DNA of 38,460 nucleotides from Bacillota bacterium. GTDB lineage: Bacteria; Bacillota; Bacilli; Alicyclobacillales; SLC66. The stretch covers positions 1-38,460 of the forward strand of contig JAKACV010000023.1 in the NCBI GenBank assembly GCA_021821085.1. The letters are read 5' to 3'. The translations under genes were made by a program, and so were the position numbers. Positions within the stretch are counted from its first letter, which is position 1. Every line of letters starts with the position of its first letter. This document shows, in pieces, positions 2,867 through 12,981 of this stretch. Under the pieces are notes generated by a model, which ran no database searches, was not told the DNA's origin, and saw nothing but the letters and a program-made list of their open reading frames with translations.

Positions 2867-3380
2867 GTAAATTTCTGATTATAAATCGCTTCGATTCTTG
2901 AGTCTACAATGATTATTTATGAGCATTTTGCGCAGTCTTCATTCTTGTTTTATAAGGCTTTATAAGCCAGTGGATGGGGGAAAGTTATTTTTCGAGGGTA
3001 GACAACCCGCGCTCACACTGGGCTCAACGAACAGCGAAAAACGCTTTTCATGGATGTCACACTGAGAAAGTTCAGTGAAAAAACCTAACATTAATATAGC
3101 AAAAAAGAACTTACGGTTAGCGGTAATGTGATGTTTATTGACATCAAAACAAAAATTGTATTAAAATTAATTACGTTATGTCATGTTATATTACGTAGTG
3201 TCTTTAAAATGGTTTTGCAAGTTATTCGTATTGCAATTATTCATATTGACAACATGTTTATCTGATAATTGTATAAAATGACAAGGACTTTTTTCATGAA
3301 CTACGCTATGATACCAGTTATATGATTTATCTGAATAAAACGATACTAACAATCTGTATGATTATTCCTGAAACGTGATT
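2867..3380. other. A+T-rich intergenic region upstream of the MFS gene
   Basis: I see no convincing gene in this stretch. It contains short dyads that could be operators or hairpins: CACTGA...TCAGTG around 3060-3075, and TGATGT (3129-3134) with ACATCA (3141-3146) spaced by 6 bases. The base composition is clearly more A+T-rich than the flanking genes, as expected for a control region ahead of the transporter/orotate cluster. Confidence 0.5.
3246..3277 (+). promoter_or_regulatory. Candidate promoter for the MFS/orotate cluster
   Basis: A perfect -35 hexamer TTGACA lies at 3246-3251. The -10 is ambiguous: TTGTAT at 3269-3274 gives a 17-base spacer, and TATAAA at 3272-3277 gives 20. It is 220 bases upstream of the MFS start, leaving a long leader that includes the mini-cistron at 3395. 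It was assigned by eye only. Confidence 0.3.
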
Positions 3381-3496: not shown

Positions 3497-4735
3497 ATGC
3501 CAGAGGCTGCGATTGAGAGTACGACAGTGTTCCAAGTGACTCCTGCGGAACAGAGACGAAATGTATGGGCAGCTGGGTTAGGATACCTAGCTGACGGGTT
3601 GGACCAACTCATTATTTCGTATACAATGCCGGCAATTGTCGCCACCTTTGCATTGACGACCATTCAGGCTGGATCAATCGCTACTGCAACGATGATCGGC
3701 ACATGGTTAGGTGCATATTTATTTGGTTTCTTGGCTGATTATTTTGGCAGGGTGAAAACCTTCACGTATTCAATTTTATTATATGCTTTGGCGACAGGCA
3801 TTTCAGCGTTCTCACCAAGCTATGATTTTCTTATGATTTTGCGTTTCTTTGTTGGGGTCGGTATCGGTGGAGAATTCGGTATTGGGATGGCCCTTGTGAC
3901 AGAAACTTGGCCGAGTAAATGGCGTGCTCGTGCAGGGTCGTATGTGGCGGTGGGGTTTAGTATTGGTACATTGCTAGCTTCCGTAGTGACGCTTTTGGTT
4001 ATGCCGATTTGGGGTTGGCGGGGCGTTATGGTTGTTGGGGTGATTCCGGCTGCATTGGCAGTATGGTCGCGTTTTAAAATCAAAGAACCTGCTTTGTTTG
4101 AACGAAATCGCCAGCGAGAGAAGCGAACGTTTCCTTTAGTTTATTTATTTAACACAACAACTCGTACGAAGACTACCATCGGTCTTTGGTTTATGACCGC
4201 AGTTCAGAATTTTGGCTATTATGGCATTATGATATGGATGCCAACGGCTCTAGCTAAGTACCATCACTATAGTTTGGCTCATACAACGGAGTGGGAATTG
4301 TTCACGACGGCCGGTATGATTGGGGGCATTCTTTTGTTCGGGGTTCTTTGCGACAAAATTGGTCGCAAACCCATGTATATTACTTTGTTCCTTGCGACGG
4401 CTGTCATTATTCCTCTTTATTTCTCCATTTCGAACCCGAGTGTCGTGTTGTTTGGCGGCATCGTTCTCGGGGCTGTTGTCAACGGAGGTATGGGTGGATA
4501 TGGCGCGATTTTATCAGAGCACTATCCCACTGCAGCAAGATCGACCGCTGAAAACTTTATTTTTGGCACGGGGCGCGGAATCGGGGGAGGATTGGGTCCG
4601 CTATTGATCGGATTGCTTGCTGTGCATATGTCCCTTTATGCGGCACTGGGTCTCTTGTTTATCGTCTATCCATTTGCGGCTTTGTTTACTTGGCTTCTGG
4701 TTCCAGAGACGAAGGGTAAAGAGTTACCAGTTTGA
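3497..4735 (+). CDS. MFS transporter, candidate orotate (heteroaromatic carboxylate) importer
   Basis: A 412-residue major facilitator superfamily permease of the sugar/organic-acid porter type, with about 12 membrane segments by eye. The cytoplasmic-loop motif GFLADYFGRVKTF between segments 2 and 3 and its repeat CDKIGRKPMY between 8 and 9 are typical MFS signatures. The segment RFFVGVGIGGEFGIGMALV fits porters for organic anions such as nicotinate or aromatic acids. The start ATG is preceded by GGGAG (3480-3484) at a rather long 12-base spacing. It is the first gene of a same-strand cluster encoding dihydroorotase, PucR-type regulator, M20 amidohydrolase, PyrK and dihydroorotate dehydrogenase homologues. 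From that context I infer uptake of orotate or a related compound. The family alone gives no substrate. Confidence 0.85.
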   Translation: MPEAAIESTTVFQVTPAEQRRNVWAAGLGYLADGLDQLIISYTMPAIVATFALTTIQAGSIATATMIGTWLGAYLFGFLADYFGRVKTFTYSILLYALATGISAFSPSYDFLMILRFFVGVGIGGEFGIGMALVTETWPSKWRARAGSYVAVGFSIGTLLASVVTLLVMPIWGWRGVMVVGVIPAALAVWSRFKIKEPALFERNRQREKRTFPLVYLFNTTTRTKTTIGLWFMTAVQNFGYYGIMIWMPTALAKYHHYSLAHTTEWELFTTAGMIGGILLFGVLCDKIGRKPMYITLFLATAVIIPLYFSISNPSVVLFGGIVLGAVVNGGMGGYGAILSEHYPTAARSTAENFIFGTGRGIGGGLGPLLIGLLAVHMSLYAALGLLFIVYPFAALFTWLLVPETKGKELPV

Positions 4736-4826
4736 GCAAAGAATTCGATGCAAATGAATTTTGCTTGTAAATAATTGCCAAAATAAATAGACGAGCATTA
4801 TGCAAAGTAATGTACGGGTTGAATTG

Positions 4827-4874
4827 TTGCGTTTGAAGGGGGGAGGGGTATACTCTCGTTTTCTTCAAACGCAA
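4827..4874. promoter_or_regulatory. 12-bp perfect inverted repeat between transporter and dihydroorotase genes
   Basis: TTGCGTTTGAAG (4827-4838) and its exact complement CTTCAAACGCAA (4863-4874) flank a 24-base loop that contains a G-rich tract and TATACT, a possible -10. There is no T-run after it, so an operator or attenuator is more likely than a terminator. It lies 63 bases before the amidohydrolase start in a cluster containing a PucR-type regulator, which is a candidate binder. Confidence 0.4.
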
Positions 4875-4937
4875 TAAGAATTTCATATTGTGTGAACAGA
4901 AGTGGCATTCTTTAAATTTTATGCGAGGAGCGAGGAA

Positions 4938-6344
4938 ATGGTCTTCGATTTGATTATTCAGAATGGGTCAATCGTTACTCCTCAATCTACGAGTAGGAAT
5001 GACATTGGTATCATTGCTGGGAAAATTGCTGTTGTGGGTAATTTAGACGGTAGCGAAGCAAAGGAACGGTATAATGCAGCGGGGAAGTATGTGTTCTCAG
5101 GCTTTATTGATGAGCATGTGCATAGTCGCGACCCAGGGTTGACCCGCAAGGAGGATTTTACGCACTCCACGATGTCTGCAGCAGCTGGCGGTGTCACGAC
5201 CATCTTGGAGATGCCAAATAGCATACCTCCTGTTAAGGATGCGGCTTCGTTTCACGCAAGAGCTCACGTGTTAGAGTCTAAAGCTTATGTTGATTTTGGT
5301 TTGTGGGGAATGGTATTGGGTGATTACAATCGAAAGGACTTGCCTGAGTTGGCTGAAGCGGGAGTCATCGGGTTTAAATTTTTCTGGGGCTATGCGCTAG
5401 ACAAAAAGACGTTTGCGCTCATTTATAACTTTTCCGCGTCGGATGATGTCAGGATGCCACCAGACGAAGGAGAAATTTACGATGCATTTCAAGTCATCGG
5501 ACAATTACACAAGCCGGTGGCTATTCATGCCGAGAATAGCCATGTTATTACTCGTTTGACGATTCACGAACTCGCAGCTGGCAATGTCGATTATGCATCA
5601 TTTTTGCGTTCGCGCCCATCCTATTCAGAGGCCATGACGATCCAAAGTGGAATCTTTCTCGCGAAAGCTGCGGGTGTACATCTGCATATTGTGCATATAT
5701 CCTCTGGCGAAGGTGTGGAACTGATTAAGGAAGCGAGAAGAAAAGGGTTGCCTATTACGGGCGAGACGTGTCCCCACTATCTTGTTTTATCTGACGAAGA
5801 CTATCCGCGTGTTACCGGTAACATGAAGATCTATCCGCCTGTGCGGGAGAAACATCATCAAAATCAACTTTGGGAAGGAATTCAGTGTGGTGCGATTCAA
5901 ACGATCGGCTCCGATCACGCGCCTCACGAGGAAAAAGAAAAAAAGGGGGATATTTGGTCTGTGCCAGCTGGTGCCTGCGGGGTTCAAACGCTAGTGCCAT
6001 TGATGTTAAATGCGGCGGCCCAGGGTAGAGTTTCACTTAATCAAGTTGCTGCTCTATTGTCTGAAAATCCAGCACGAATTTGGGGCATGTATGGGCAAAA
6101 GGGCACATTGCTTGCGGGGGCAGATGCCGACATTACGATTGTCGATATGAATGTCAATCGGACATTGCGCAAAGAGGAGTTGTTTTCGAAGAATAAGATT
6201 AATCCGTTTGAGGGTATGAACGTTCAGGGGACACCAATCGCTGCTTTTGTGCGTGGGATTCAGATAATGGAGAATGGGAAGCTGATTTCGGGTCCAATCG
6301 GTCGATTGATAAAGCCATCAACAAGTTGTCAAGCGCAGTGGTGA
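4938..6344 (+). CDS. Dihydroorotase-like cyclic amidohydrolase (catabolic role proposed)
   Basis: A metal-dependent cyclic amidohydrolase of the dihydroorotase/allantoinase/hydantoinase superfamily, 468 residues, expected to open the ring of L-dihydroorotate to N-carbamoyl-L-aspartate. Visible metal ligands are the H60-V-H62 pair in EHVHSRDPG, K147 (carboxylated Lys, in VIGFKFF), H197 (AIHAEN), H253 (IVHISS) and D326 (GSDHAPH). The Arg of HSRDPG (R64) and the Asn of EMPN (N94) are the residues that bind the substrate carboxylate in dihydroorotases; allantoinases and hydantoinases differ at these places. CPHYL is shared with allantoinases. ATG 4938 is chosen because GAGGAGCGAGG lies just upstream and the protein then begins with the family-typical strand; a GTG at 4902 would add 12 residues. 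Allantoinase is the main alternative. Confidence 0.85.
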   Translation: MVFDLIIQNGSIVTPQSTSRNDIGIIAGKIAVVGNLDGSEAKERYNAAGKYVFSGFIDEHVHSRDPGLTRKEDFTHSTMSAAAGGVTTILEMPNSIPPVKDAASFHARAHVLESKAYVDFGLWGMVLGDYNRKDLPELAEAGVIGFKFFWGYALDKKTFALIYNFSASDDVRMPPDEGEIYDAFQVIGQLHKPVAIHAENSHVITRLTIHELAAGNVDYASFLRSRPSYSEAMTIQSGIFLAKAAGVHLHIVHISSGEGVELIKEARRKGLPITGETCPHYLVLSDEDYPRVTGNMKIYPPVREKHHQNQLWEGIQCGAIQTIGSDHAPHEEKEKKGDIWSVPAGACGVQTLVPLMLNAAAQGRVSLNQVAALLSENPARIWGMYGQKGTLLAGADADITIVDMNVNRTLRKEELFSKNKINPFEGMNVQGTPIAAFVRGIQIMENGKLISGPIGRLIKPSTSCQAQW

Positions 6345-6400
6345 ATGCGATACGGTCGAGTGAATATCGGTATGCATTTTGCGAACAAGGGGAATAGAGG

Positions 6401-8041
6401 ATGAGCGTAACGGTCGCAGATGCAATGGTGATTGGAGGACTCGCGCATTGCAGAGTCGTCGCAGGAGCAGAAGGGATGGAGCGGGAAATAGAGTACGTCA
6501 CAGTGATGGAGGTGCCAGATGTAATTGACTGGTTGAACGGCAAAGATTTTCTACTCACTAGCTTATATGCGATTAAGGATGATATGCAGGCGCAGGCAGA
6601 GTTAGTAAAGCAACTGGTTGACAAAGGATGCGCTGCACTCGCCATTAAAACCCATCGGTTCTTTAACGAGATTCCAGAGTGCATTCTCGAAGCAGCTAAT
6701 CTACTGAAATTTCCTATTATCGAAATAGATAAAGATGTGAGATACATTGATATTATTACTCCGTTAACGGGACTTATTCTAGACAAACAAACATTTGAAC
6801 AGGCTCATATAGAAGATTTTTTTCATGTATTAACTGAAATGGCGATGGAGGGGCAAGAGTCAACTGCAATTATTGGAATGGTCGAAAAATTTATTCATAA
6901 CTTGGTTACTTTAGAATCAGATGTTCCGGTGATCCAGGAAAATAACCGTTGGAACAGCGCCGTTGCGCCATTGACAGCAAGTCAGCGAACGGCATTGCTG
7001 AAGTCAAAGCGTTCCTTGGGAATGACTCGTGAATTAGATCAAGTAGTGTTGCCTTGCATTGTTGCACCGATTATTTTGAACGGTGAACTAGAAGGTTACT
7101 TGACATGTTGGCAGACGGTACGAACGTTTACTCAGATGGATCTGGCTGTTCTTGAGCGCGTAATTCCGCTTTTGGCGCTGCAAATCCTCGAGATAAAAAC
7201 GAGAATTGAAGTAGAACAAAAATATAAGAATGACTTCATGTCTGGAATTCTCTTGGGTAATATTCCATCTGGAGAGGAAATAATTGAAAAATCACGCTTA
7301 TATCACTGGGATTTAACCTTGGATTATGTAGTGTCACTTTTTGATACGGATCACTTTGCACGCTTAATCGAAAACCAGTTGCGTGATGAAGTGTCTATTC
7401 AGGGTTTTAAACAAAGATGGTTGCGGAATGTTGAGAGACTGGCTAAAGCTGAATTTCAGAGGGCCATTGTTATTCTATGGAATGATAAGTTTGTCGTGTT
7501 ATGTCCATATGATAGTCGCGAGGATACAGCAAAAGTAATTGATAGAGTTAAAGTTATGATCGAAGGAATACAAAAGAAATTACTGAGAGAGATCCCCGGT
7601 GTCACCTTTACAGTGGGAATATCGAGGCCCTATCCGGGTGTCAGTGGTTTGCGCGAAGGATATGCGGAGGCAACCAAGGCAATTCAACTAGGGCGTCCTG
7701 TATACGGGCGTAACACATGCATTTATTTTGGTGAATTGGGTGTGTATCGTTTTCTCTCACAGGTAAAGGACGATGTGGATTTGAAATCGTTCTATGACGA
7801 GACTGTTGGTCAGTTATTGGCATACGATCTGACACATGATACGCATTTAACGGAGAGTTTGGTCGCTTATTTTAACAAGAATTTCAATGTGGTTGATGCA
7901 GCGAAGGATCTTTTTGTCCATCCCAATACACTCAAATATAGGCTGCAGAGGATCGAGGAAATTACAGGTTGCTATTTACATGAGGCGGAGGGAAGGTTAA
8001 AACTTCATTTGGGGCTAAAAATACGGAAAATATTAGACTAA
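6401..8041 (+). CDS. PucR-family transcriptional regulator
   Basis: A 546-residue regulator. The N-terminal PucR domain (about residues 5-125; VTVMEVPDVIDWL...DFLLTSLY) is followed by a long central region and a C-terminal PucR helix-turn-helix (about 485-545; VVDAAKDLFVHPNTLKYRLQ). Bacillus PucR, the family's namesake, controls purine-degradation genes in response to pathway intermediates. Here the gene sits between the dihydroorotase-like and carbamoyl-amidohydrolase genes, on the same strand, so it probably senses orotate or a breakdown product and controls the cluster. AAGGGG about ten bases upstream supports ATG 6401. A 138-base gap to the next gene suggests a second promoter there; that gap contains the small palindrome AGATATATCT near 8107. 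Whether it activates or represses cannot be read from the sequence. Confidence 0.9.
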   Translation: MSVTVADAMVIGGLAHCRVVAGAEGMEREIEYVTVMEVPDVIDWLNGKDFLLTSLYAIKDDMQAQAELVKQLVDKGCAALAIKTHRFFNEIPECILEAANLLKFPIIEIDKDVRYIDIITPLTGLILDKQTFEQAHIEDFFHVLTEMAMEGQESTAIIGMVEKFIHNLVTLESDVPVIQENNRWNSAVAPLTASQRTALLKSKRSLGMTRELDQVVLPCIVAPIILNGELEGYLTCWQTVRTFTQMDLAVLERVIPLLALQILEIKTRIEVEQKYKNDFMSGILLGNIPSGEEIIEKSRLYHWDLTLDYVVSLFDTDHFARLIENQLRDEVSIQGFKQRWLRNVERLAKAEFQRAIVILWNDKFVVLCPYDSREDTAKVIDRVKVMIEGIQKKLLREIPGVTFTVGISRPYPGVSGLREGYAEATKAIQLGRPVYGRNTCIYFGELGVYRFLSQVKDDVDLKSFYDETVGQLLAYDLTHDTHLTESLVAYFNKNFNVVDAAKDLFVHPNTLKYRLQRIEEITGCYLHEAEGRLKLHLGLKIRKILD

Positions 8042-8179
8042 GTGATTAGGTTTTTGAGGTGGCTTGTTTAACCGGACAATATTTTCCCGATTATTTTAGC
8101 GAATTAGATATATCTATAATCTGCTGTATTCACTACACTATGTACAAAAATAAATGATCCATGTGCGGGAGGACCTCCA

Positions 8180-9439
8180 ATGGCGAAAACCAGTTATCGA
8201 GATGATCACGCGTTTTCCATCCATTTTTTCCTGGAAGTGTTTTCGCGTTTCGGATACGGTGCAAACGGGATCACTCGACTAGCGTACACAGAACCTGAAA
8301 AAATGGCGAAAACTCAATTTGTGAAGTTGTGTGAGAATGAAGGTATGAATGTTCGGTTAGATGCTGCTGGGAATGTCATTGCTAGGCGTTCCGGGGTAGG
8401 AGAAGAGAAATGTGCAGTTGCTTGTGGATCGCATTTGGATTCTGTGATTAACGCCGGGAGTTACGATGGTGTGTTGGGCGTACTAGCGGGTTTAGAAGTG
8501 GTGCGAATGCTTAACAGAAGAAATATTCAAACTAGATATCCCATTGAACTCATTGCGTTTACGTGTGAAGAGTCTAGTAGATTTGGTGTTTCGACTGTTG
8601 GAAGTAAGGCGATGGTAGGATTGTTAGACATGGATGTTCTTGCTCATGTTAAGGATAAAGCAGGCATGTCTTTTGAGGAAGCAGTTCGACTGCAAGGACT
8701 TGATTTTGCTCGTTTGCCGCAGGCACGCCGGAGTCCAGATGAACTAAAGGTGTTCATTGAACTTCATATTGAGCAAGGGCCCGTGCTCGAACAAAACAAA
8801 AAGCAGATTGGCGTGGTCAGCTCAATTGCGGCCCCCACACGATTTCGTTTAAATATTGCCGGAGAAGCTGGTCATTCTGGAACGACAACGATGGAGTTAC
8901 GCAAAGATGCTTTGGTTGGTGCGGCTGAGATCATCCTTGCTGTAGAAAAACTGACAACCCAGGAGCATCATTCTTTTTCTGTAGGGACAGTTGGATCACT
9001 TCATGTGCTTCCTAATTCTACTAATACAATTCCCGGGAAGGTGGAAATGATCTATGAATTTAGAAGCAACGATCGTGAAAGCAAATATCATTTGAACCGA
9101 AGTTTGATTGAGCAAATTAAGGATATCTCGGAACGTAGAGGATTAACTGTCGAAAGTCAACTGTTGAGTGATGAATCACCTGTTGAATTGAACCCGTTCG
9201 TACGAAATGTGATTAAAGAGTCGTGTGAAGTACGTGGCAAATCATTTTTAGAAATGGCGAGCGGAGCGGGTCATGATGCCATGAATATGGCACAACTTTG
9301 CCCGACAGGTATGATTTTTGTTCCATCGGTTCGAGGGGTAAGTCATCATCCTGGTGAATTCACCGAACCATTTGATGTGGAGGCAGGGGTGGATATTTTG
9401 TACGAAACGATGCTTCGTTTAGCCGAACCGATATGTTAA
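8180..9439 (+). CDS. M20-family N-carbamoyl-L-amino-acid/ureidosuccinate amidohydrolase
   Basis: A zinc-dependent amidohydrolase of the M20 HyuC/AllC group, 419 residues. Metal and catalytic motifs are GSHLDS (H85), YDGVLG (D96), FTCEES (E130, E131), ELHIEQGP (H196) and, near the C-terminus, GVSHHPGEFTEP. The dimerisation-domain motif AGHSGTTTMELRKDA is present. Family members hydrolyse N-carbamoyl-L-amino acids, allantoate or beta-ureidopropionate. With dihydroorotase and dihydroorotate dehydrogenase beside it, the fitting substrate is N-carbamoyl-L-aspartate (ureidosuccinate), giving aspartate, ammonia and CO2. This assignment is inference. The start is well supported by GGGAGGA (8167-8173), which lies in a small palindrome GGAGGACCTCC that might affect translation. 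The next gene follows after 30 bases. Confidence 0.87.
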   Translation: MAKTSYRDDHAFSIHFFLEVFSRFGYGANGITRLAYTEPEKMAKTQFVKLCENEGMNVRLDAAGNVIARRSGVGEEKCAVACGSHLDSVINAGSYDGVLGVLAGLEVVRMLNRRNIQTRYPIELIAFTCEESSRFGVSTVGSKAMVGLLDMDVLAHVKDKAGMSFEEAVRLQGLDFARLPQARRSPDELKVFIELHIEQGPVLEQNKKQIGVVSSIAAPTRFRLNIAGEAGHSGTTTMELRKDALVGAAEIILAVEKLTTQEHHSFSVGTVGSLHVLPNSTNTIPGKVEMIYEFRSNDRESKYHLNRSLIEQIKDISERRGLTVESQLLSDESPVELNPFVRNVIKESCEVRGKSFLEMASGAGHDAMNMAQLCPTGMIFVPSVRGVSHHPGEFTEPFDVEAGVDILYETMLRLAEPIC

Positions 9440-9469
9440 TCGTTATTTTAGAGGGAAGGATGCAATGAA

Positions 9470-10255
9470 ATGAAGTTATTGCAAGGTACGGTTTTGTCAA
9501 ATACATGGGTGAGTCCGCGCTATAAGCATATGTCAATTCATGCCCCGGAAATTGTCGAGGAGTGCAAAGCTGGACAGTTTTTTCATCTGAAATGCTCGGA
9601 TAGTTTTTCCCCGTTGCTTAGGCGCCCGATGAGCATCTATAAAATAGTAAAAAAAGAGGGTGAAATACACTTTTTGTATTTGATAAAAGGTGAGGGGACG
9701 AAGTGTTTGGCGAATATGCATCAAGGAGACCAATTGAATATGTTTGGGCCTCTTGGAAATGGATTTACTTTGCAAACGGAGTGGCATTCTCTCTTGATCG
9801 TCGCCCGCGGTGTGGGGTTGGCGACAATGGCACCTTTAATCGATATGGCGACGAAACAGGGTATTGCGACTTACGCAATTCTCAGCGCAAGGACAAAGGG
9901 GGACATTCTGTCTGCGGACTACATGAAAGAGTGTGGCGCTGAGGTGGTTTCATTAACGGATGAAGATCGTGACAGCGATGTGGAGCATGTGAGGAAAATG
10001 GTTGAAAATGTAATCGATAGCAAGTCCATTGATGCGTTGTTTACATGTGGATCAAAACGTTTGACGAATATGCTCAAAGGGATATCCTTACAGCGGAAAA
10101 TACCAGGCCAGGTTGCAATGGAAGAAAACATGGGTTGTGGTTCGGGAATGTGTTTTTGCTGTGTTAAGCCATTCAATCGGGGTGGCGAGATTGTCAATTT
10201 GCGCGTGTGTTCAGAAGGACCCGTATTTCAGTTGGAAGAGGTGATGGAACTGTGA
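9470..10255 (+). CDS. PyrK-like dihydroorotate dehydrogenase electron-transfer subunit
   Basis: An iron-sulfur flavoprotein of the PyrK family, 261 residues, which passes electrons between NAD(H) and a class 1B dihydroorotate dehydrogenase. The FAD-binding motif RRPMS is at residues 51-55, and the nucleotide-binding segment ARGVGLATMAPL is around 112-123. The [2Fe-2S] cysteines are C223, C228, C231 and C247 (pattern C-x4-C-x2-C-x15-C in MGCGSGMCFCC...RVCSEGPVF); C230 is an additional Cys. The ATG has GAGGGAAGGA shortly upstream, and the last four bases overlap the following dehydrogenase gene. NAD coupling makes the reaction reversible, which suits orotate reduction with NADH. The gene is not surrounded by the usual pyr biosynthetic operon, supporting a separate catabolic role. 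Confidence 0.92.
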   Translation: MKLLQGTVLSNTWVSPRYKHMSIHAPEIVEECKAGQFFHLKCSDSFSPLLRRPMSIYKIVKKEGEIHFLYLIKGEGTKCLANMHQGDQLNMFGPLGNGFTLQTEWHSLLIVARGVGLATMAPLIDMATKQGIATYAILSARTKGDILSADYMKECGAEVVSLTDEDRDSDVEHVRKMVENVIDSKSIDALFTCGSKRLTNMLKGISLQRKIPGQVAMEENMGCGSGMCFCCVKPFNRGGEIVNLRVCSEGPVFQLEEVMEL

Positions 10256-11196
10256 ATGAGGTTGACATGAAGGTCTCGATTGGGGGAGTTTCAATGAAAA
10301 ACCCTGTTATGCCAGCTTCGGGTACGTTTGCTGAAGAAACGGCGCAGATTTTTGATCTGAGTGTACTTGGTGCGCTCGTTACGAAGAGTGTGACGAAATA
10401 TCCACGGATGGGCAATCGTGGACCACGAATCGCAGAGACGATTGCTGGTATGATCAATGCGGTTGGTATTCAGAGTAAAGGATCTCAGGTAATTCGGGAA
10501 ACGTCCATTCCTTTTTATCAACAATTTAACAGTCCGTTAATTGTTAGTATTTCTGCCGATACAGCTGACGAATTTGTCGACTTGGCACAGGAACTGTCCG
10601 TGCCTGGAGTTGCTGCACTTGAAATCAATATCTCTTGTCCCAATCTAGAGGATGATGGACGGTCATATGCGATGGATCCAACGCAGACCTATCGTGTGGT
10701 TGATTACATTCGAAAAAGTACACAACTTCCGTTGTACGCGAAGTTAACGCCTAATACGAATGCAATCACTGAAGTCGCAGTTGCAGCTGAGGCAGCTGGA
10801 GCCGATGCGGTGGTGGTGGCAAATACGATGCTTTCAATGGTCATTGATGTTGAGACGAGAAAGCCGAAAGTTGGGAATATCATGGGGGGACTTTCTGGAC
10901 CTTGCACGAAACCAGTGATTTTACGGATGGTATATCAAGTATATAAAAAAGTGGGTATTCCGATCATTGGGTGCGGAGGAATTTGTAGTGCAGAAGATGC
11001 CATCGAGTATATGATTGCTGGAGCATCCGCAGTTCAAGTTGGAACCTATAATTTTGTTAACCCGATCGGGATGGTCGATATTATTCAAGGTATGAAGGAA
11101 TACGCGGTTCGTCATAGGATATCTTCGTTGAGTGATTTGGTCGGGTCGGTATGCGTCGATGAACAAACACGTATCGACAAGGCAGCCGCATATTAG
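10252..11196 (+). CDS. Dihydroorotate dehydrogenase, class 1B (PyrD-like)
   Basis: An FMN-dependent dihydroorotate dehydrogenase catalytic subunit, 314 residues, close to the roughly 310 usual for class 1B. The catalytic Cys is C129 in EINISCPN, and FMN/substrate Lys residues are K45 (VTKSVT) and K164 (YAKLTPN). GGLSGP and the GCGGI phosphate-binding motif near the C-terminus are also present. The start is the GTG at 10252, overlapping the pyrK-like stop by four bases (GTGA), with GAGGTG just ahead, so the two subunits are translationally coupled. It lacks the C-terminal ferredoxin domain of dihydropyrimidine dehydrogenase PreA, arguing against a uracil-reduction pathway. In this context I read it as working in reverse (orotate to dihydroorotate), but a biosynthetic duplicate cannot be excluded. 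Confidence 0.9.
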   Translation: MNEVDMKVSIGGVSMKNPVMPASGTFAEETAQIFDLSVLGALVTKSVTKYPRMGNRGPRIAETIAGMINAVGIQSKGSQVIRETSIPFYQQFNSPLIVSISADTADEFVDLAQELSVPGVAALEINISCPNLEDDGRSYAMDPTQTYRVVDYIRKSTQLPLYAKLTPNTNAITEVAVAAEAAGADAVVVANTMLSMVIDVETRKPKVGNIMGGLSGPCTKPVILRMVYQVYKKVGIPIIGCGGICSAEDAIEYMIAGASAVQVGTYNFVNPIGMVDIIQGMKEYAVRHRISSLSDLVGSVCVDEQTRIDKAAAY

Positions 11197-11281: not shown

Positions 11282-11485
11282 TTAGAATTGGACATTATGG
11301 GAATCTATCTTGAAACACACAGGGTGGAGTTTGACAACTCGGCCGATATCGAACTCCACTAAAGCATTACCGTCTTCAGTAATCGCGCGAATAATACCAT
11401 ATTCCCCCCGGAACGCCACTTTTTCAATCCCTTCTTCATAAATATCATCTATTATCTCGACTCTATCACCGATTTCTATAAACAT
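11282..11485 (-). CDS. Small SH3/KOW-like protein of unknown function
   Basis: A 67-residue protein read from the ATG at 11485, chosen because GAGGAGGGG lies 6 bases upstream. It is mostly beta-strand in character (FIEIGDRVEIIDD, GEYGIIRAI, NALVEFDIGRVVKLHP), resembling small SH3- or KOW-like barrels that often bind nucleic acid or a partner protein. Its first 20 bases overlap the end of the phosphoribosyltransferase-like gene, so the two are probably translationally coupled. I do not recognise the family. Confidence 0.7.
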   Translation of the reverse strand: MFIEIGDRVEIIDDIYEEGIEKVAFRGEYGIIRAITEDGNALVEFDIGRVVKLHPVCFKIDSHNVQF

Positions 11486-12410
11486 TGCTTTCCCCTCCTC
11501 GCGCGTGAATGCCAAAGAATAATGGGAACTCCTCTGCAAATTCGTATGGATCATTCTGTACAAAGGATAGTATGCGATTTTGTTGCGTTTCATCGAGAAA
11601 AATAAATTGGTCTGTTAGTAATCGTTCACAACGAGTCAAAAAATTGTGCGTCCATGATCGAGGAGATTCCATATAAAGCAAGATCTCGTGTAGAGAAAAT
11701 TGGCTAATTAAATTTTTTTTATACGCTTCAACGAAAACAGCTTCGCTTAGATCTAAGGGTGTAAATATTTGAACTCCATTTTGTTCTAGCTTCTGACGAC
11801 CTGGCGTGCCGCGAACTGCGACAGTTAGTGTTTCTTTTAATGAAACACCGATTCCTTCAAGTGTGGGTAACCAGTAGCGTGTGTAGCTTGCTGCAGTATT
11901 AATAATATCGGAAACATGTAACACATTTACATCATTCCATTTGTTATCCGTTAGATTGCCATGGTTATCTAAACTCCAGTAATCACCGTTTTTTAAAATA
12001 AACAGGTGAGGAATTCCCATTACTTTTGCAAAAGGAATAGAAAAAAACCAGTCTCTACGTTCACCACCAGAAATAGCTGAAGGCATCGATCGAGTTGAGG
12101 ATTGATAAAATTGGACTAGTAGAGAGATGGTCTCCATGTAATTCTTGTCGCAATCCAGGTGGCCGATCATGATTTGTGATATTTTCATGGCCTTTTCTCT
12201 TCTATCCAAAGCAGACGAGAGAATGTCGGTGATTTGGGGCAATGCCTGAGAGGCGATATGAGGACCAATCATTTTTTCGACATTGATATAATATGGTCCA
12301 GGAATACAGGAGGTGTACCAATAAGGCATGTCTGTTTCATTCTTTCTGACTCGAATAGCACCCGTTTGCACCAAGCGTTCTAATAGACGATCCTGCATGT
12401 TGATAGTCAT
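11466..12410 (-). CDS. Orotate phosphoribosyltransferase-like protein with altered PRPP loop
   Basis: A 314-residue protein whose first 220 residues follow the order of landmarks of orotate phosphoribosyltransferase: LVQTGAI (14-19), PGPYYINVEKMIG (38-49), SGGERRDWFFSIPFAKVMG (114-132) where PyrE has its substrate-binding loop, HLFILK (135-140), VLHVSDIINTAAS (163-175) at the PRPP-binding loop, and RQKLEQNGVQIFTPLDL. The PRPP loop normally reads like VVDDVITTGGS; here one of the two Asp residues is Ser and TTGG is NTAA, so transferase activity is doubtful. About 90 further residues form an extension I do not recognise. ATG 12410 has GGAGG 8 bases upstream. It converges on the orotate-type cluster, suggesting a ligand-sensing or salvage role. 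The family assignment is by pattern only. Confidence 0.6.
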   Translation of the reverse strand: MTINMQDRLLERLVQTGAIRVRKNETDMPYWYTSCIPGPYYINVEKMIGPHIASQALPQITDILSSALDRREKAMKISQIMIGHLDCDKNYMETISLLVQFYQSSTRSMPSAISGGERRDWFFSIPFAKVMGIPHLFILKNGDYWSLDNHGNLTDNKWNDVNVLHVSDIINTAASYTRYWLPTLEGIGVSLKETLTVAVRGTPGRQKLEQNGVQIFTPLDLSEAVFVEAYKKNLISQFSLHEILLYMESPRSWTHNFLTRCERLLTDQFIFLDETQQNRILSFVQNDPYEFAEEFPLFFGIHARGGESNVYRNR

Positions 12411-12981
12411 AGGCACAACCTCCGCATAGACTCATGAAATATGTCAATTAAAAGTATATCAAATTATTAGAATAAAAGTTACTAGAAAAATAAAACTGCT
12501 CCTCAGATTCTCAGTGCGAAACGGATTCCCGAGATCGTGGATTTTAGTATTCACGTTTGATGAATACGCTGGTCATAATAATAGGCTATCTTGTCAATCT
12601 TCGCATCTAGTTAGATACACATAGTGGAAAATTTGAATATAGATAGGTAAATCGTCCTTGTATAATGGAGCAGTAGCTAAGTAATGTAACTTTCATGAAA
12701 AGAACTTAACATGGAATTATGGTAATCTTATTATCAAGCACTGGAGTTAACTGGTTGTTTAATATTTTAGGGCATGAAGTGAAAGTCTTATTTCAAGTGA
12801 GATAATTCATTCGCCATCTAGGTATGGAGAGTATTAAAGTTATGCTTGAGGAGCTAGATAGTGCAAGACCTGTCATATAGGTGGTTGTCGATGAAACAAG
12901 CAACTCATGCCTCTAAACGAAGGACGGAGAAGTACGCCCGCTGAGGTGCAATCACTAATCAAATAGAGGGAGATGGATTTG
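12411..12981. other. Intergenic region, no recognisable gene
   Basis: This stretch separates the PRTase-like gene from the hypothetical gene at 12982. It is A+T-rich. A TATAAT at about 12661 could be a -10 element for rightward transcription, but no good -35 is seen at the right distance. A short frame near 12824-12880 (contains IKVMLEELDSARPVI) ends in a stop and continues in frame as VVVDETSNSCL, which may be the remains of a small gene. I could not identify it. Confidence 0.4.

Follow-up and report, generated by a model that had tools for sequence, protein, structure and literature searches.

The six genes located at positions 3497-11196 of the window (i.e., the whole stretch of 38,460 nucleotides that was analysed) very probably form a PucR-controlled catabolic module for orotate, apart from pyrimidine biosynthesis (estimated probability of roughly 0.88). 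The following route is proposed: (i) an MFS carrier would import orotate; (ii) PyrK/PyrD, fed by NADH, would reduce orotate to L-dihydroorotate; (iii) a cyclic amidohydrolase would open the ring to give N-carbamoyl-L-aspartate; (iv) an M20 enzyme would split the latter into L-aspartate, NH3 and CO2. The cell would gain a C4 skeleton and two nitrogens, and the PucR regulator would act at TTGT-N8-ACAA motifs located upstream of the transporter gene and of the M20 gene. Read from the genes, the families of an orotate-reducing dihydroorotate dehydrogenase, a dihydroorotase and a carbamoylaspartate hydrolase are found together and apart from biosynthesis. The original prediction of an orotate degradation route is thus supported by a separate pyr operon, the recurrent linkage to PyrKD, the dihydroorotase-type residues of the amidohydrolase and its exchange for PyrC. 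Orotate is fermented in this manner by Clostridium (Zymobacterium) oroticum, with an NAD-linked dihydroorotate dehydrogenase, a dihydroorotase and a ureidosuccinase. The ureidosuccinase step (EC 3.5.1.7, hydrolysis of N-carbamoyl-L-aspartate) was described in the 1950s.

All six open reading frames are intact and lie on the + strand, and the profile matches confirm the families predicted for them. The MFS carrier (3497..4735; PF07690) is of the aromatic acid:H+ symporter type and is the predicted orotate importer. Its best NCBIfam match is TIGR00895 (247.7 bits, under the cut-off of 418.55), and its gene is kept in the cluster of relatives with 48-89% identity. A role of the opp ABC genes located upstream (635-2631) as orotate transporter is not supported, as they are missing from the cluster of the congener (G057). 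A strong RNA hairpin (4820..4878, + strand, z −7.5) occupies the gap that separates the MFS gene from the dihydroorotase gene; in the congener, a hairpin of other sequence, followed by a T run, is located at the equivalent place.

The cyclic amidohydrolase (4938..6344; TIGR03178 and TIGR00857 over cut-off), the predicted catabolic dihydroorotase, has its probable start at ATG 4938, which is preceded by a good ribosome-binding site, rather than at GTG 4902. The PucR-type transcription regulator (6401..8041; PF07905, PF17853 and PF13556) is conserved in the cluster. The M20 carbamoylase (8180..9439; TIGR01879) is the predicted N-carbamoyl-L-aspartate amidohydrolase (ureidosuccinase), as suggested by its clade, its neighbourhood and residue R221. 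PyrK (9470..10255), the FAD/2Fe-2S electron-transfer subunit, matches PF10418 over cut-off and PyrK of L. lactis (1ep1/1ep3/5ksw). The class 1B PyrD subunit (10252..11196; TIGR01037 and NF005574 over cut-off) probably starts at GTG 10252, with a 4-base overlap with the pyrK stop, and not at 10207. Its best PDB match is PyrDB of L. lactis (1ep1/5ue9), and the alignment to 1ep1 indicates that the class 1B catalytic Cys and the NAxGxQ motif are retained. The pair has the features of a class 1B dihydroorotate dehydrogenase, i.e., a TIGR01037 PyrD with the catalytic Cys and a PyrK with a 2Fe-2S domain. The claim that no other pyr gene is present at the locus has to be completed by a divergent homologue of PyrE (OPRT), located just downstream at 11466-12416 on the − strand.

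Co-occurrence of the M20 gene with pyrK and pyrD, as expected from the prediction, was found in all nine order-mates whose M20 has about 50% identity or more (one cluster is split across two contigs and another is seen only as M20 and its neighbours). In 21 order-mates with an M20 of at most 43% identity, neither PyrK nor PyrD is present within about 1.5 kb. The loci are related and these counts do not represent independent events. Four of the clusters (G025, G007, G039 and G040) have no allantoinase-like gene; a PyrC-type dihydroorotase, 44-48% identical to biosynthetic PyrC, is inserted between M20 and PyrK. A second PyrC is present elsewhere in G025, G007 and G040 and was not found outside the cluster in G039. 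In G053 and G054, the cluster is devoid of its own dihydroorotase and adjoins the pyr operon.

A scan of named genomes revealed the core also in Alicyclobacillus fastidiosus (strain DSM 17978), Paenibacillus senegalensis (PyrC type, with ABC-transporter genes alongside), Halalkalibacter oceani and Lysinibacillus telephonicus (both with TRAP genes), Bacillus sp. EB01 (MFS), Streptomyces sp. SID9727 (PyrC type) and Pseudonocardia sp. MH-G8 (allantoinase-like type). On the M20 tree, the linkage to PyrKD requires at least 6 changes, thus the assembly or loss of the module took place more than once. In G020 (L049 13873-18642), genes encoding an asparaginase, an MmgE/PrpD protein and a member of the ornithine cyclodeaminase family are interspersed among those of the MFS carrier and the amidohydrolase, and a CapA-like (PGA_cap) protein gene lies inside two Bacillaceae orotate clusters (L066 14419-15693; L068 8649-9956).

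In known dihydroorotases, an Arg, an Asn and a His bind the carboxylate of dihydroorotate. All three are present in the window enzyme, i.e., Arg of HxHxR, Asn of MPN and His of DHAPH (R76/N106/H342, numbering from 4902). Among 34 related amidohydrolases compared, the triad is found in every amidohydrolase adjacent to PyrKD, whether of the allantoinase-like or of the PyrC-like type; the allantoinase-like neighbours of other M20s have mostly Asn, Asn and Cys/Ser/Ala. Dihydroorotate rather than allantoin as the substrate is thus supported by these residues and by the replacement with PyrC in relatives.

Another acid leading to N-carbamoyl-L-aspartate, e.g., L-5-carboxymethylhydantoin, could be the true substrate of the route, orotate being a side branch. 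A carboxymethylhydantoinase was described from the orotate-fermenting C. oroticum itself, and the PDB entry that the amidohydrolase matches best is an L-hydantoinase. However, this explanation is improbable: it leaves PyrKD without a role, and it is at odds with the presence of PyrC in place of the amidohydrolase in relatives.

An allantoin-allantoate pathway, in which PyrKD would be present by chance or for another purpose, is suggested by the annotation. The first library match labels the amidohydrolase allantoinase, and its score against TIGR03178 (allantoinase AllB) is 378.7 bits, over the cut-off of 357.85. Moreover, the best match of the M20 enzyme is annotated allantoate amidohydrolase, and in B. 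subtilis the catabolism of purines is under the control of PucR. Nevertheless, this pathway is very improbable, being contradicted by the residues of the site. Solved allantoinases have HTHISEPG/MPLN/DHSPC, whereas the window enzyme has HVHSRDPG/MPN/DHAPH; the allantoinase pattern (no Arg in HxHxx, and DHSP[CS]) is absent from it. In the same way, the M20 enzyme reaches only 288 bits against the 598 of the allantoate deiminase model (AllC, TIGR03176), and PyrC occupies the place of the amidohydrolase in relatives. It must be added that allantoin catabolism (PucR, AllB/PucH, AllC/PucF) involves homologous regulator, amidohydrolase and M20 families, but differs from the present cluster by the lack of PyrKD and by other residues at the substrate site.

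The M20 enzyme belongs to the hydantoinase/carbamoylase family (TIGR01879, 413 bits for a cut-off of 204). R221 is invariant among the M20s of the clusters and is a candidate ligand for the second carboxylate of N-carbamoyl-aspartate. This residue is also present in 32% of the other M20s, i.e., about a third, thus the specificity of the M20 enzyme is not readable from sequence. Close M20s of Bacillaceae (45-48% identity) often have no PyrKD nearby, hence the family also occurs outside the route and, taken alone, was rejected as a marker of it. In Metabacillus fastidiosus (L062 4092-11212), a close M20 relative directly follows pyrB-pyrC-pyrF-pyrE and a carbamate-kinase-like gene. In Desulfosporosinus (L075 2888-17304), an M20 and an amidohydrolase with the Arg/Asn/His triad are found beside molybdenum-hydroxylase-like genes, without PyrKD; this locus counts against the orotate reading.

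The genome (2.85 Mb, 97.5% complete) was searched for another pyrC, pyrD and pyrK, whose absence would have made the cluster genes the biosynthetic copies. A full set is found on contig C34, in a complete pyr operon (pyrR-pyrB-pyrC-carA-carB-pyrK-pyrD-pyrF-pyrE). At least one further full-length PyrD is present in each of the 8 cluster genomes tested. The PyrK Fe-S domain was scanned in 59 genomes of the order, i.e., 18 of family f1 and 41 of family f2. Most f1 genomes have one match; more than one is found only where the cluster is present, cluster genomes having two to three (three in G052-G054). Among the 41 f2 genomes, matches are restricted to five cluster genomes (G007, G020, G025, G039 and G040) and G038. 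The three families are biosynthetic elsewhere, but a second biosynthetic pyrC-pyrK-pyrD set is barely credible: it is contradicted by the complete operon on C34, the M20 hydrolase and PucR belong to the same set, and most f2 genomes live without PyrK.

Predicted operators of the palindromic form TTGT-N8-ACAA are located upstream of the MFS gene (3269..3284, TTGTATAAAATGACAA, in a block of 48 bases that is also conserved in G057) and of the M20 gene (8064..8079, TTGTTTAACCGGACAA). The three sites of the window are by number alone not unusual, thus the support for the operator comes from placement and conservation. Over nine related loci (158 kb), 9 of the 11 exact sites fall in predefined intergenic DNA before transporter and M20 genes (5.2 kb in total), for a Markov expectation of 0.17; the relatedness of the loci means that the counts are not independent and that the binomial value is only loose. 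Only the spacer of 8 is enriched (other spacers give 0 to 3 sites). Lysinibacillus telephonicus, outside the defining set, has two sites, one between the PucR and TRAP genes and one before M20. The motif was not found in L061, L066, L068, L085 and L115, and a scan for consensus promoters and terminators gave no more matches than chance. PucR is probably the regulator that acts at these operators.

The OPRT-like gene (11466..12416, − strand) is convergent to the cluster and probably starts at ATG 12410. Its PyrE score is weak. A profile of the protein searched against the PDB finds an OPRT (E 9e-7), and OPRTs are the best PDB matches of its AlphaFold2 model (pLDDT 86.8; Z 19.6, rmsd 2.6, 208 aligned). 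The predicted model thus has the OPRT fold. The catalytic signatures are not retained: the PRPP motif is degenerate (HVSDIINTAASY for VIEDTISTGGSS), and the protein has no RxKxKxHG loop. A motif resembling the orotate-side loop, WYTSxxPGPxYIN, is conserved. The product is probably a non-catalytic orotate-binding protein, as far as the model and the alignment indicate. Among 299 genomes of the class, the gene is found only in Alicyclobacillales. In G024 and G026, where no cluster was detected, it is retained with alr on one side and a penicillin-binding-protein gene on the other, and it cannot be considered as strictly pathway-bound; in G025, the cluster is located exactly between alr and the penicillin-binding-protein gene. 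The link of this gene to the orotate route is good but not exclusive. Beside it, a conserved small protein of 67 aa is encoded (11282..11485, − strand; 48-66% identity in L048, L049, L050 and L052), whose gene is near the orotate cluster in four other genomes. Neither the OPRT-like nor the 67-aa protein has a Pfam match over cut-off.

A broader proposal can be put forward, more tentatively and with somewhat less than even odds. The M20 gene would be a ureidosuccinase gene and would mark a second catabolic route for pyrimidines, leading from orotate to aspartate, that is widespread in Bacillota and Actinomycetota and was assembled repeatedly, forming a PucR regulon with TTGT-N8-ACAA as operator; in Alicyclobacillales, the route would be accompanied by an OPRT-derived orotate-binding pseudoenzyme that senses or buffers orotate. 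If the orotate reading of the cluster is right, (i) ureidosuccinase becomes a testable gene; (ii) probable annotation errors (allantoinase, allantoate amidohydrolase, biosynthetic pyrD/pyrK) would be corrected in several genera; (iii) the pathway swaps its dihydroorotase and transporter between lineages, PyrK, PyrD and M20 being constant.

The predicted steps of the cluster are the same as those known from the biochemistry of orotate fermentation in C. oroticum, the comparison covering the reaction steps. The present system differs in that the PucR regulator, MFS carrier, M20-type hydrolase and cluster layout are defined, and in that it concerns another class of Bacillota as well as Actinomycetota. 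In the open literature (subscription papers and preprints being outside the scope), no gene named for ureidosuccinase and no orotate-catabolic operon were found. The gene set, the operator and the ureidosuccinase gene candidate thus appear, provisionally, to be new; the chemistry is old. Barba et al. (PMC4016543) compared the catabolic routes of purines and of pyrimidines and the biosynthesis of pyrimidines as parallel modules, and the parts of that article consulted describe no orotate-catabolic module.

The same genome also contains a hydantoinase/M20/NCS1 set (contig C55) and a reductive uracil pathway (contig C101). The latter (PreTA, dihydropyrimidinase and beta-ureidopropionase) follows a parallel logic, i.e., dehydrogenase, cyclic amidohydrolase and carbamoyl hydrolase, the notion of such reaction modules being found in PMC4016543. 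It differs from the orotate cluster by the use of PreTA, dihydropyrimidinase, a nitrilase-type hydrolase and an NCS1 carrier, and has none of the orotate enzymes. Its dihydropyrimidinase gene is broken by an in-frame TGA (L016 7969-7971), which reflects either an error or decay.
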